In this document: piece by piece, positions 5,701 through 34,109 of the stretch | Layout: every line of letters starts with the position of its first letter | How positions within the stretch are numbered: position 1 is the stretch's first letter | Assembly: GCA_902515395.1 (NCBI GenBank) | Contig: CABXUL010000012.1 | Coordinates: 1-39,417 of the forward strand | Length of the DNA: 39,417 bases | Origin: an uncultured Bacteroidota bacterium | GTDB taxonomy: Bacteria; Bacteroidota; Bacteroidia; Flavobacteriales; Flavobacteriaceae | Reading direction: 5' to 3' | Notes under the pieces: model-generated | Database searches by the model: none | What the model was told of the DNA's origin: nothing | What the model saw: the letters and a program-made list of their open reading frames with translations, nothing else | Made by a program: the position numbers and the translations under genes

Positions 5701-8700
5701 ATGTCATCAAAAAAAGTTTATTGGAAAAGCGTAGCTCAATTAGATGAGAGCAACGAGATGGTACATAAGCTTGAGAATAACGAGTTTGTCGAAAAAATTC
5801 CTGTTGATGAATTTCTCGGGGACGAAGATTCGATGAACCAGTCCAGTACCAATAGGAGAGACTTTTTGAAATATGTTGGGTTTAGCACTGCAGCTGCAAC
5901 ATTAGCCGCATGTGAGGGACCAGTGATAAAATCTGTTCCATATGTGGTGCAGCCCGAACAAATTATCCCTGGAATTGCTAACTATTACGCTACTGCAATA
6001 GCAGATGGATTCGATTTCGCAAGTATTTTGATAAAGACCAGGGAGGGTAGACCTATTAAGGTTGAAAGTAATTCAGACGCCCCCTCAATGGGATGTGCTA
6101 ATGCTAGAGTTCACGCCTCTGTTTTGTCACTCTATGACATAAAAAGATTGCAGGGTCCGAAAGTGGAAGGGAAAGATGTGAGTTGGAATGATTTTTACAG
6201 TCAACTTGGAGCTAAGCTTAAGGCGATGGGTAATTCAGGTAAACCTGTAGTTATGTTAACTCAGACCTTTGCCAGCCCAACAACCCAAAGTATTTTGAAA
6301 AAATTTATCAAGCAGTTTCCTAATATTCGTCATGTAACTTATGACGCAATTTCCTCAAGTGCTGCATTAGACGCATTTGAAAATATTTATGGCGTTAGAG
6401 CATTAGCTGATTACGATTTTTCTAAGGCTGAAACCATCGTTTCAATTGCTGCTGATATTCTAGGTGATTGGCAAGGAGGGGGTTACGACGCGGGTTATGC
6501 AAAGGGAAGAGTACCCAAAAAAGACCACGGAAAATCTATCATGTCCTATCATGCTCAGTTCGAGTCTAATTTATCTCTTTCAGGAGCAAATGCAGATCAT
6601 CGTTTTCCTATCGATCCTGCTTCTCAAAAAAAAGTAATAGCTCAAATTTATGCTGGACTAACTGGTGTGTCTTTAAAAAGTAATTTAAACGCAGAATTAA
6701 CCAAGACAGTAGCCGAAATTGTTGAAAGGTTAAAAACTGCTGGTGAGAAGGGAGTAGTTGTTTCTGGGATTGATGATATCGCTGTTCAGAAGGTTATATT
6801 GGCAATTAATAATCATTTAGGTTCAAAAGCAATCAATATCGCTCAGCCTAAACTAATCCGTAAGGGAAATAACTCAGAAATCATTAAGTTGGTGTCTGAT
6901 ATTAAAAGTGGAGAAGTTAAAGGGTTGATAACGGCGGGAATAAATCCTGGATTTACCCTTCCAAATGCCGATGAATTCCTTGAAGCTTTTGAAAAATTAG
7001 AATTATCTGCTGCATTTGCTATTAAAGAAGATGAGACTGCAGCTGCAGCTCAATTTCTAGGGGCTACCTCTCATTACCTTGAAAGTTGGGGAGATTATGA
7101 ATTCAAAAAAGGTCACTTTGCATTAGCACAACCTACTATTAAACCGCTATTTGATACTAGTCAATTTCAAGATGTACTATTGAAATTAATGAAGACAAAA
7201 ACTAATTACCATCAAGAGATTAAATCTTTCTGGAAGGAAAATGTATTATTAGAAAAAACTTGGAATCAATCTCTTCACGATGGTTTTTTAACTACTGATT
7301 CAAGTATAGAATTTAATTCACCTAAAATTGATGTCAGTGATCAGATTAATAAATTGTCTCTATCAGCTTCTAATGCTTTGTCATTAGTACTTTATACGAA
7401 AACTGGAATGGGAGACGGTCAACAAGCTAACAATCCATGGTTACAGGAATTCCCCGACCCTATATCTAGAATCTCCTGGGATAACTATTTAACGGTTTCC
7501 GCTATTGATGCAAAGGAAATAGGACTTAAAAATATTAACGTTTCTAATGGAGCTTTAAATGGAAGTTATGCTCAAGTCTCTGTTGGAGATAAGACAATTA
7601 CTGCTCCAGTGTTGATTCAGCCGGGTCAAGCCAAAGGCACTATTGGGCTTGCATTTGGTTATGGCGATAGAAAGGGGTTACAAGAGGAAATGCAAGTTGG
7701 AGTTAATGCCTACCCATTTTACAATAACTTCGATTCTGTTCAAGATGTGAGTATTAAACCAGCTGATGGACATCATGAGTTTGCTTGTGTTCAGTTACAT
7801 AATACATTAATGGGCAGAGGTGATATTATAAAAGAGACCACTTTGGAAATTTTTAATACAAAAGAAAAAGAATATTGGAACCCAGTTCCAAAAGTTTCTA
7901 AAAACCACATGGAATATGAAGTTACCTCTTCAGAGGTAGACATGTGGCAATCTTTTGACCGATCTATAGGACATCATTTTAACCTTTCAATAGATTTAAA
8001 TTCGTGTACAGGTTGCGGAGCTTGTGTCATTGCATGTCATGCTGAAAATAATGTTCCAGTAGTTGGAAAAGATGAAGTAAGAAAATCAAGAGATATGCAC
8101 TGGTTAAGAATTGATCGCTATTACTCATCTGGTGAAACCTTCAAAGCAGATGATCAAACTAAAGAAGATATTGATGGGTTAGGAGATTCTCTTTCTACAT
8201 TTGGAAAAATGGAACAAGCCTCTGAGAACCCTCAAGTCGCTTTTCAGCCTGTGATGTGTCAGCATTGTAACCACGCTCCATGTGAAACAGTTTGCCCTGT
8301 GGCGGCATCTTCTCATGGACGTCAAGGACAAAACCACATGGCATATAATAGATGCGTTGGAACGCGCTATTGTGCTAATAACTGTCCTTATAAAGTCAGA
8401 AGATTTAACTGGTTCTTGTATAACAAAAATGATGAGTTTGACTATCACATGAATAATGATCTAGGTCGAATGGTATTAAACCCTGATGTAGTTGTAAGAT
8501 CAAGAGGAGTAATGGAAAAATGCTCTTTTTGTATTCAAATGACTCAAAAGGCAATCCTAGATGCTAAACTAGAGGGGAGACAAATTAAGGATGGAGACTT
8601 CAAATGCGCTTGCTCAGATGCATGTTCCACTGGAGCTATGGTATTTGGAGATATTAACGATAAATCTAGTAAAATTGCTGCTCTAAAAGAGGATGAAAGA

Positions 8701-31764: not shown

Positions 31765-31780
31765 TAATAAATTTTTGCTT

Positions 31781-32164
31781 ATGGCTGAAGACTTACACAA
31801 ATTAGCTATTTTTAGAGGACTGTTAAAATTTAAATCAAACGTTCAAAAAATTTGGGGGGTTTTGATTTTTCTATCAATCGTAACTACAATTGAGGTCGTT
31901 CTTGGGATTTTAAAACCTGAGTTTCTACTTTCTTATTTCTTAAATATGAAATTATTGAATTGGATATTCATTATATTAACCTTGGTTAAAGCATATTACA
32001 TAGCTTGGGATTTCATGCATATAAGAGATGAAAAGGGAAGTCTTCAAGGTTCTATTGTTCTTCCACTAATTATATTGATACCTTATTTAATATTCATATT
32101 AGTATTAGAGGCAGACTATATTTTTGATGTCATGAATACTGGTTTTCAAAGTTGGAACTTCTAA
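31781..32164 (+). CDS. Cytochrome c oxidase subunit IV-like membrane protein
   Basis: A 127-residue protein with three hydrophobic helices (about 26-46, 62-84, 95-117), matching the prokaryotic cytochrome oxidase subunit IV family found after coxC in Bacteroidetes. YYIAWDFMHIRDEKG lies after the second helix, a conserved feature of the family. The start is ATG 31781 (MAEDLHKLA) rather than the in-frame TTG at 31775. Lies 16 bases after the second subunit III gene. Confidence 0.85.
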   Translation: MAEDLHKLAIFRGLLKFKSNVQKIWGVLIFLSIVTTIEVVLGILKPEFLLSYFLNMKLLNWIFIILTLVKAYYIAWDFMHIRDEKGSLQGSIVLPLIILIPYLIFILVLEADYIFDVMNTGFQSWNF

Positions 32165-32194: not shown

Positions 32195-32644
32195 ATGAGT
32201 CAAAAAACAAAAAAATATTTTGTTCTCTGCATTCTTTTTATATTCCCAATAGTCATTTACCTGTTTTTTGCATCTGGTAAAAATAATTTCGCATTACTTC
32301 CAGTTTTAACTAAGAATGTCAACGAGATCAAAAACTTCAAAACTCTTTCTGGAGAAAGGATTCAATTGGAAGATAAAATTTCTATTTTAGGTTTTTGGGG
32401 AGAAGATCTTTCAGAAAAAAAAGGTGATGCTCTAAACCTCAATCAAAAGATTTATAAACGTTTTTATCAATTTAATGATTTCCAATTTGTGATGGTTTTA
32501 GAAAACGGTCAACAGAATCAGGTTAATATTTTGAAAGAAGAGCTACAAGAGGGAGTTGGGACAGATTTAGTTAAGTGGAGATTTATTTTTGGCTCTCCAG
32601 ACGAAATACAAGATTTATTTGACAGTCTGAGAACTAATCAATAG
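32195..32644 (+). pseudogene. Membrane-anchored thioredoxin/Sco-like protein, C-terminally truncated by an inverted repeat
   Basis: 149 codons remain: an N-terminal transmembrane/signal segment (about 7-26) and a soluble part with QLEDKISILGFWG and NLNQKIYKRFYQFNDFQFVM, resembling a thioredoxin-fold protein that lacks the CxxC. Homologues lie between the subunit IV and Sco genes in Flavobacteriia; from memory they are about 210-220 residues and end in a segment like SVAELxxKMxxDVxxLLAEYR. Here the frame runs into the left arm of a 133-bp inverted repeat at 32633 and stops at once (last residues TNQ). A matching C-terminal end (SVAEINNKMVDDVKVILAEY) is found further downstream in another frame. 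The gene therefore looks broken, or the sequence here is wrong. Function unknown; position suggests oxidase assembly. Confidence 0.7.
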
Positions 32645-32765
32645 GCTATCTTGATTATACATTAAAAAATCAGGAACCCTTTTAGCTTCTCCATTAAGTT
32701 TTATATACGCCAAAGGCTTTGCGGGAGCTGATCGGTTATCCTGAACGGCGGTATCACTTCTCAAT
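32633..32765 (+). repeat. Left arm of perfect 133-bp inverted repeat (inverted copy of sco codons 28-72)
   Basis: Every base is the reverse complement of 32949-33081. This arm contains no plus-strand gene except the last codons of the truncated upstream gene. Read on the minus strand it encodes the same peptide as sco (including PAKPLAYIKLNGEAKRVPDF). It sits where the middle-to-late part of the upstream gene would be expected, so it is the displaced copy. Outside the arm the similarity ends abruptly on both sides. Confidence 0.97.
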
Positions 32766-32864
32766 TCTCAGTCAGTTGCTGAAATAAACAATAAGATGGT
32801 GGACGATGTAAAGGTAATTTTAGCAGAATACCGAAGAGCTTGGAAAAAGTACAACCAGAATTAA
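32766..32864 (+). pseudogene. Detached C-terminal remnant of the truncated upstream gene
   Basis: In the frame with codons starting at 32766 the sequence reads SQSVAEINNKMVDDVKVI then LAEYRRAWKKYNQN and stops at 32862-32864, one base before the sco ATG. This fits the expected C terminus of the 32195 gene family (recalled pattern SVAELxxKMxxDVxxLLAEYR). It is shifted by one frame relative to the 5' part and separated from it by the inverted-repeat arm. It has no plausible start of its own. Confidence 0.6.
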
Positions 32865-32865
32865 T

Positions 32866-33564
32866 ATGAGGAAAAATTATAAATATCTTGGATTGATCGT
32901 TATCATTATTGTCTTTGCTCTTCTTTTTATTCCAAAGATTATTGAGAGATTGAGAAGTGATACCGCCGTTCAGGATAACCGATCAGCTCCCGCAAAGCCT
33001 TTGGCGTATATAAAACTTAATGGAGAAGCTAAAAGGGTTCCTGATTTTTTAATGTATAATCAAGATAGCCTATTGATTAGTAATGAAGATTATTTAGGTA
33101 AGGTATATTTAGCAGAGTTTTTCTTTAGTCGTTGTCCTACTATTTGTCCAATAATGAATAGAAATATGAAAATTTTGGATGATAGATTTTGGAAAAGACA
33201 AGATTTTGGGATAGCCTCTTTTACTATTGACCCTGCTCATGATACTCCGATAATTTTAAAAGAATACGCTGAGAGTTATAAAGTAAAATCTAAAAATTGG
33301 CATTTTCTTAATGATAATAAAGATCAGGTGTATGAGCTAGCAAATTCAGGATTTAGTATCTTTGCAAGTATAAATCCATCACTAGCAGGCGGTTTTGAGC
33401 ACCAAGGGTATTTTGCCTTGATTGATAAAAAGGGATATATAAGATCCAGAGTCGATCGCTTTGACAACCCGATCGTATATTATTCAGGAATTGACAGAGA
33501 TGATCAAGAAACCCAGGGGGTAGATATGCTACTAGAGGATATTGAGCTGCTCTTAAAGGAATAA
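32866..33564 (+). CDS. SCO1/SenC-type copper chaperone
   Basis: A 232-residue membrane-anchored thioredoxin-fold protein that delivers copper to, or reduces, the CuA site of CoxB. Visible features are an N-terminal anchor (about 6-22), the copper-binding CPTIC (Cys90, Cys94) in FFFSRCPTICPIMN, ASFTIDPAHDTP, and the third ligand His179 in GGFEHQGYFALIDKKG. The length is normal and the protein is intact. Its codons 28-72 form the right arm of a perfect inverted repeat whose other arm lies just upstream, so its mRNA, if cotranscribed with that arm, could fold into a 133-bp duplex covering the start of the soluble domain. Confidence 0.95.
   Translation: MRKNYKYLGLIVIIIVFALLFIPKIIERLRSDTAVQDNRSAPAKPLAYIKLNGEAKRVPDFLMYNQDSLLISNEDYLGKVYLAEFFFSRCPTICPIMNRNMKILDDRFWKRQDFGIASFTIDPAHDTPIILKEYAESYKVKSKNWHFLNDNKDQVYELANSGFSIFASINPSLAGGFEHQGYFALIDKKGYIRSRVDRFDNPIVYYSGIDRDDQETQGVDMLLEDIELLLKE
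32949..33081 (+). repeat. Right arm of perfect 133-bp inverted repeat (native sco coding sequence)
   Basis: Exact reverse complement of 32633-32765; the spacer is 183 bp (32766-32948). This arm is in frame within the intact sco gene and encodes residues that fit the family (including NQDSLLISNEDY at its end), so it is the original and the left arm the copy. Confidence 0.97.
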
Positions 33565-33575
33565 AAGTTTAGAAA

Positions 33576-34109
33576 ATGAAAATTAATAAAGAGATTCAAG
33601 AGTCCCAAAAGTACACCAAACTAATTACCCTAATCTCAATTGCGGTTCCGGTATTGGTGGCAGTTCTTTTTACGGTAAGAATTCCCAATGTTGCATCTTT
33701 TGACTTTTTACCACCCATTTATGCTACCATTAATGCATTAACTGCGGTAATTTTAATCATAGCCTATATAGCTATAAGAAATAAAAAAATTAAACTTCAC
33801 GAAAGGTTGATGAAAATTTCGATTGGTCTATCTCTGGCTTTCCTAGCCATGTATGTTGCATATCATATGACCTCCGACTCAACCCCATACGGAGGTCAAG
33901 GAATGATAAGGAACGTCTACTATTTTATTTTGATTTCTCATATCATTCTTTCGATCGGAATCATTCCAATGGTTCTTGTCACCTATGTACGTGCCATTTC
34001 AAAAAGGTTTGTACACCATAAAAAAATTGCTGTGATTACCTTTCCAATTTGGCTGTATATTGCTGTCACTGGAGTGATTGTTTATCTTATGATCTCACCC
34101 TATTATTAA
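33576..34109 (+). CDS. DUF420 family membrane protein
   Basis: A 177-residue protein with five predicted helices (about 16-34, 42-62, 78-97, 115-138, 150-172). The DUF420 pattern is visible in NKKIKLHERLMKISIGLS, MYVAYHMT and RFVHHKKIAVITFPIWLY, with conserved histidines near helix ends. The family is regularly found beside oxidase and Sco genes and is thought to help assemble the oxidase; biochemical role not established to my knowledge. Starts 11 bases after sco and is followed 4 bases later by a tiny membrane protein gene. Confidence 0.9.
   Translation: MKINKEIQESQKYTKLITLISIAVPVLVAVLFTVRIPNVASFDFLPPIYATINALTAVILIIAYIAIRNKKIKLHERLMKISIGLSLAFLAMYVAYHMTSDSTPYGGQGMIRNVYYFILISHIILSIGIIPMVLVTYVRAISKRFVHHKKIAVITFPIWLYIAVTGVIVYLMISPYY

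Follow-up and report, generated by a model that had tools for sequence, protein, structure and literature searches.

The 39,417-bp stretch of DNA analyzed here (the window) carries a perfect inverted repeat, joining sco to its upstream neighbor, in which 133 bp of sco coding sequence have been copied in reverse orientation over 117 bp of the neighboring gene. The repeat has the look of a scar of a familiar type rather than of a working element, and its origin was very probably one template switch with two junctions as DNA was being synthesized, if synthesis in an amplification tube and in a cell are taken together. This confidence is the sum of those attached to the two settings separately, and all of our weightings of origin are judgements, not computed values. 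The event is a clean two-junction switch, all four switch points of which can be read from close relatives, and with either origin it advises caution over gene loss, hairpin regulation or gene conversion inferred from a single assembly.

The inverted repeat and the sequence it replaced

The surrounding genes form a cytochrome c oxidase cluster that runs from COX4_pro (31775-32164) through a gene without a Pfam match (32195-32644) and sco (32866-33564, plus strand) to DUF420 (33576-34109). The sco gene, which is the donor of the copy, is intact and colinear with that of relatives, and it encodes a 232-residue protein of the SCO1/SenC family (PF02630, E 3.3e-21). Bases 32633-32765 are the exact reverse complement of 32949-33081, and the perfect arms and 183-bp spacer described in an earlier note on this DNA were borne out at 133/133 positions; because of its length alone, with 133 matching bases, chance is excluded. 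No second inverted repeat in the window reaches 30 bp. The right arm (32949-33081, plus strand) is native sco coding sequence and the template of the copy, and it occupies the same position in relatives, in agreement with what had been proposed from the window itself. This arm differs from its counterparts in the two nearest relatives, G006 and G019, at 3/133 and 6/133 positions, respectively, and the left arm matches the window's own version exactly.

The comparison with close relatives that the earlier note had suggested shows the unrearranged gene in both G006 and G019, with the arm absent. In a DNA search of 40 genomes, 26 gave some match, the closest being G019, G006 and G003. G006 aligns with the window over 20 kb in one stretch that includes the locus (96.6% identity, with 661 mismatches and 29 gap positions), and for G019 the alignment covers 12 kb as two stretches (96.6 and 96.8%), with the repeat locus as the only break. 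The upstream gene is uninterrupted in the DNA alignments of G006, G019, G003 and four further relatives (n = 7), and matches to the left arm in ten genomes of the genus all fall within their sco copies. Between the motifs ACTAAT and TCAAT there are 133 bp in the window versus 117 bp of unrelated coding sequence in G006 and G019, while TCAAT and the right arm lie 183 bp apart in all three, and both flanks are colinear. The exchange of 117 bp for 133 bp, the colinear flanks and the constant spacer therefore mean that the left arm (32633-32765, minus strand) took the place of 117 bp in the upstream gene and that all else stayed in position, where the unrearranged sequence of the window's species is taken from the two relatives G006 and G019. 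The left arm is thus an inverted copy that requires two breakpoints, as had been recognized, although instead of being inserted outside sco it swaps out 117 bp within the upstream gene, with a net gain of 16 bp. The displaced 117 bp gave just short, weak matches elsewhere in the 95% of the window's own genome that was searched, and a whole-genome search returned nothing apart from this locus and the two arms.

Each edge of the left arm coincides with a short homology, and these homologies become visible only in a comparison of the window with the unrearranged sequence of its two nearest relatives. At the outer junction the unrearranged gene of G006 and G019 has ACTAAT (6 bp, 32633-32638, plus strand) in common with the reverse complement of 33076-33081, and at the inner junction it has TCAAT (5 bp, 32761-32765, plus strand) in common with that of 32949-32953. 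These are the relevant microhomologies, and they are longer than the offset TCTCA that had been put forward in their place; the suggestion of microhomology-mediated template switching itself fits. When inverted jumps of 150-600 bp were drawn from the sequence of three relatives (about 360,000 jumps each), a microhomology of at least 6 bp arose in 0.31% (P about 0.003) and one of at least 5 bp in about 0.9% (P about 0.009), and the two junctions jointly would be expected at about 3 in 100,000 if they are independent. The 6-bp outer figure depends on the two nearest relatives, because the more distant G003 reads ACAAAT at that site.

Truncation of the upstream gene

A stop codon inside the left arm shortens the upstream protein to 149 residues, the open reading frame found at 32195-32644 (plus strand), from the 217 residues of the nearest relatives. 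The orphaned 3' end of the gene is still present, undecayed, at 32766-32864 (plus strand), where it encodes ..SQSVAEINNKMVDDVKVILAEYRRAWKKYNQN followed by a stop codon. In tblastn, residues 184-217 match 32760-32861 at 94% identity and free of stops, and the remnant 32766-32865 differs from G006 at 3/100 positions and from G019 at 6/100.

The gene between COX4_pro and sco belongs to a conserved family of about 217 residues in marine Flavobacteriaceae, as seen in the window and in loci L021-L100. Judged by the best tblastn match, its protein is full length in 79/80 sco loci, where full length means a match from residue 30 or earlier to residue 205 or later without a stop and 80 of 164 relatives were kept; the remaining locus is cut by a contig end. 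Within the genus, the gene is stop-free at 18/19 loci, some genomes being common to both sets. The exception, L016 (G018, 950-1593), carries a frameshifted upstream gene that is split over two frames with stops, is colinear and lacks the inverted copy; it is either a sequencing indel or a second broken allele, and it is a result that counts against the argument from conservation.

Neither Pfam at curated cut-offs (three relatives and the truncated copy) nor NCBIfam (one relative and the truncated copy) gave a match for the upstream protein. The AlphaFold model of an intact relative has a thioredoxin-like order of strands and helices, with a mean pLDDT of 65 and values below 50 over the last 48 residues, and its best PDB matches in Foldseek are Sco and ResA structures, among them yeast Sco1 (2b7j, E 2.2e-5) and BsSco (1xzo, E 4.1e-5), with TM-scores of 0.41-0.58 for both. 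An alignment of 24 sequences (23 relatives and the window) contains no conserved cysteine, and from the predicted fold the protein may be a cysteine-less Sco-like assembly factor. In that model the truncation takes away the strand at 156-164 and everything beyond it, and in the alignment two conserved parts are lost, namely the LRGR(D/N)DDE motif, which is highly conserved, and a region at the C-terminus.

The proposed template switch

From the replacement, the two microhomologies, the constant spacer and the intact relatives, all of which are observed, we infer the following steps of synthesis. A growing strand would have switched at one microhomology to nearby sco, where it extended by 133 nt in the opposite orientation before rejoining its own template at the second microhomology, thereby overwriting 117 bp and truncating the upstream gene. 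During minus-strand synthesis the nascent strand could fold on itself into a hairpin primed at ATTGA/TCAAT, with a loop of 183 nt, whereas in plus-strand synthesis the other parental strand would have to serve as template. On the unrearranged sequence, the four switch points lie in the order 1-4-3-2, or in the mirror order 3-2-1-4 for the other strand. These two orders make up the majority of rearrangement patterns reported from great ape genomes, where they give single inverted repeats, and an intra-strand switch is described there as requiring point 2 to lie before point 1 (PMC7954356). It is by this intra-strand rule that the fold-back of the nascent strand is possible only with minus-strand synthesis.

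The event resembles the four-point template-switch mutations of that account, in which the reverse complement of sequence close by is written over the DNA between two switch points and leaves a perfect inverted repeat between colinear flanks (PMC7954356). The window likewise has a nearby reverse-complement tract, one replaced segment with colinear flanks and short homologies at the switch points, the last being expected for primed switching and not strictly required. It differs in its 133-nt tract and 183-bp spacer, in being bacterial and in being known from one assembly. A bacterial parallel is the quasipalindrome template switch of Escherichia coli, in which a newly made strand mispairs with an inverted complement close by and uses it as template; in the reporters described, an 18-bp imperfect repeat is perfected (PMC6357072), whereas the unrearranged sequence at this locus offered just 5-6 bp of prior complementarity at the points of switching. 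The points against a template switch are accordingly that the 133-nt tract is far longer than the 18-bp reporter quasipalindrome (PMC6357072), that the unrearranged sequence provides just 5-6 bp of pairing at the switch points and that the intermediate is one that cannot be observed.

The event is likely to be young. With a terminal branch of about 1.5% for the window in this region, the two arms would be expected to differ at about 4 positions over the full branch, and zero differences place the event, with a 95% upper bound and at average rates, within about 0.76 of the branch. The earlier note had read zero divergence as a recent event, conversion or an artefact; the identity stands, but it carries less weight than was given to it, with only about 4 differences expected, and it fits a recent mutation and an artefact alike.

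In the tube, in the cell or in the assembler

We give a nearly even chance to a switch in vitro, in which phi29 polymerase would have made two successive switches in one amplicon during multiple displacement amplification (MDA) of a single cell; with few template molecules at the locus, the chimera could be carried into the consensus. The two nearest relatives, G019 and G006, appear from their AG- style names to be single amplified genomes, a naming style shared by AG-410-O08, which is listed as a GORG-Tropics single amplified genome (PMC11247762). The window's genome is similar in profile (1,673,978 bases in 70 contigs, 68% complete and 0% contamination) and is plausibly a single amplified genome as well, though some other AG- records are titled MAG. 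Chimeras of the kind described from MDA are mostly inverted (406/475), 337 of those joining segments within 10 kb, with 2-21 complementary nucleotides at most junctions (PMC1855051). Taken singly, each junction in the window is likewise an inverted join over less than 10 kb with complementarity in this range. What is unlike is that the described chimeras have one junction and two segments (PMC1855051), whereas the window's event has two junctions and returns colinearly 117 bp further on. The two breakpoints had been held to tell against amplification; the breakpoints are real, but the weight placed on them is too great, since each junction is MDA-like and a second switch is unusual and not impossible. 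For the single-cell workflow, 1.5 misassemblies per 100 kb are reported on benchmarks (PMC11247762), and the account of its two amplification chemistries reports no difference between them in read-level chimeras (PMC5519541). An origin in the tube is also favored by the undecayed remnant and by the fact that nearly all relatives examined have the broken gene at full length.

The scan of the window's own genome bears on both settings. It covered 1,587,834 of 1,673,978 bases as 101 pieces, each taken singly and with spans up to 20 kb, so that repeats at the edges of pieces were missed, and it found no other perfect inverted repeat of at least 40 bp in the bases scanned. The same scan gave no pairs in 400,000 bases of G006 and G019 or in 333,362 bases of G014 and G010. 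An amplification that generates chimeras might have left more such repeats in the 1.59 Mb scanned, or in the 400 kb of G006 and G019; this is, however, weaker counter-evidence than it appears, because an assembler may drop single-junction chimeras, and a double switch resembles a bubble. If the repeat did come from amplification, it would represent a kind of artefact, namely a double switch that is near length-neutral and truncates a gene, which an assembler could accept and a reader take for a pseudogene.

It is a serious possibility, which we place somewhat short of even, that replication went wrong in an ancestor of the sequenced cell and that the product is now segregating or fixed in the strain. 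The repeat is unique among perfect inverted repeats of at least 40 bp in the 1.59 Mb scanned, its two junctions, with 5-6 bp microhomologies and a colinear return, agree with the four-point pattern of template switching in replication, the arm length of 133 is not known as a k-mer size of the common assemblers, and there is no sign of scaffold gap filling. Such a mutation would have destroyed the last third of a Sco-like protein that is full length in 79/80 sco loci and stop-free at 18/19 genus loci; it must also be young, as the remnant and arms are undecayed, and the arm is seen in one genome, the nearest relatives being without it. An in-cell event would be a very recent, probably deleterious mutation. 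We give slightly less weight again to the more specific claim of a genuine 133-nt switch in a cell of a wild marine Flavobacteriaceae, through a fold-back of about 180 nt primed by five or six bases. If the event did take place in a cell, it would have been caught before its removal by selection or by hairpin-cleaving nucleases, it would have joined two adjoining genes for cytochrome-oxidase assembly in a single long hairpin transcript, with loss of the upstream Sco-like factor, and it would extend bacterial template-switch tracts well beyond the 18-bp reporter repeats.

An error of the assembler or of gap filling, with no chimeric DNA molecule behind it, is improbable. In an assembly graph, two paths of 117 and 133 bp that link the same flanks would resemble a bubble, but edges lying exactly on 5-6 bp of microhomology would not be expected from an assembler alone. 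Nor is the arm length known as one of the usual k-mer sizes. Short runs of N, which would betray gap filling, are lacking, the only two N runs in the genome sequence covered being long (2,500 and 1,545 bp, for 4,045 N bases) and presumably due to masking.

It is very improbable that the repeat has a function, either as a long mRNA hairpin controlling sco or as arms kept identical by conversion, seated as it is on the ruin of a conserved gene and absent from the relatives examined, whose upstream gene carries no such interruption. The RNA would fold into a 133-bp stem at -287 kcal/mol, compared with a mean of -108 for 100 shuffles (z -27.7), but this z-score is no evidence of function, because any perfect stem folds well; such a stem in the sco message would be a likely RNase III substrate. 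Paired changes conserved among relatives, by which a functional RNA hairpin would be recognized, were not found, the arm being absent from them. A maintained element or regulator was also considered and rejected, with no Rfam match up to E 1, no terminator-like site and no counterpart in the relatives examined; promoter-like sites in the region number 1, against 2.1 expected.

The own-genome scan listed 10 other inverted pairs, six of them short and four of 68-135 bp. The short pairs are of 19-24 bp at 96-100% identity or, in one form, 39 bp and perfect with a 5.3-kb spacer, and include three perfect pairs of 19-20 bp with spacers of 0.9-2.8 kb; the longer ones have 85-96% identity and spacers of 2.3-8.5 kb. 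Three pairs on contig C23 (134, 39 and 135 bp) are parts of a diverged inverted gene pair (73-78%): locus L165 there carries, at 1-1337 and 6339-7626, facing inverted copies of a serine-hydrolase-like gene and a small membrane-protein gene, as named from their translations, and these are older paralogues and no recent event. Locus L169 has an inverted pair of 111 bp at 85%, and L194, on the 4.2-kb contig C52, has a 68-bp inverted repeat at 93% (486-553 and 2832-2899) with a 2.3-kb spacer. Across the 80 sco loci (510,295 bases) there are two inverted pairs, one of 17 bp and one of 81 bp. The latter, in L046 (1456-1536 and 3823-3903, 95% identity, 2.3 kb apart), has its second arm ending at the contig end and is either an assembly end artefact or a repeat.
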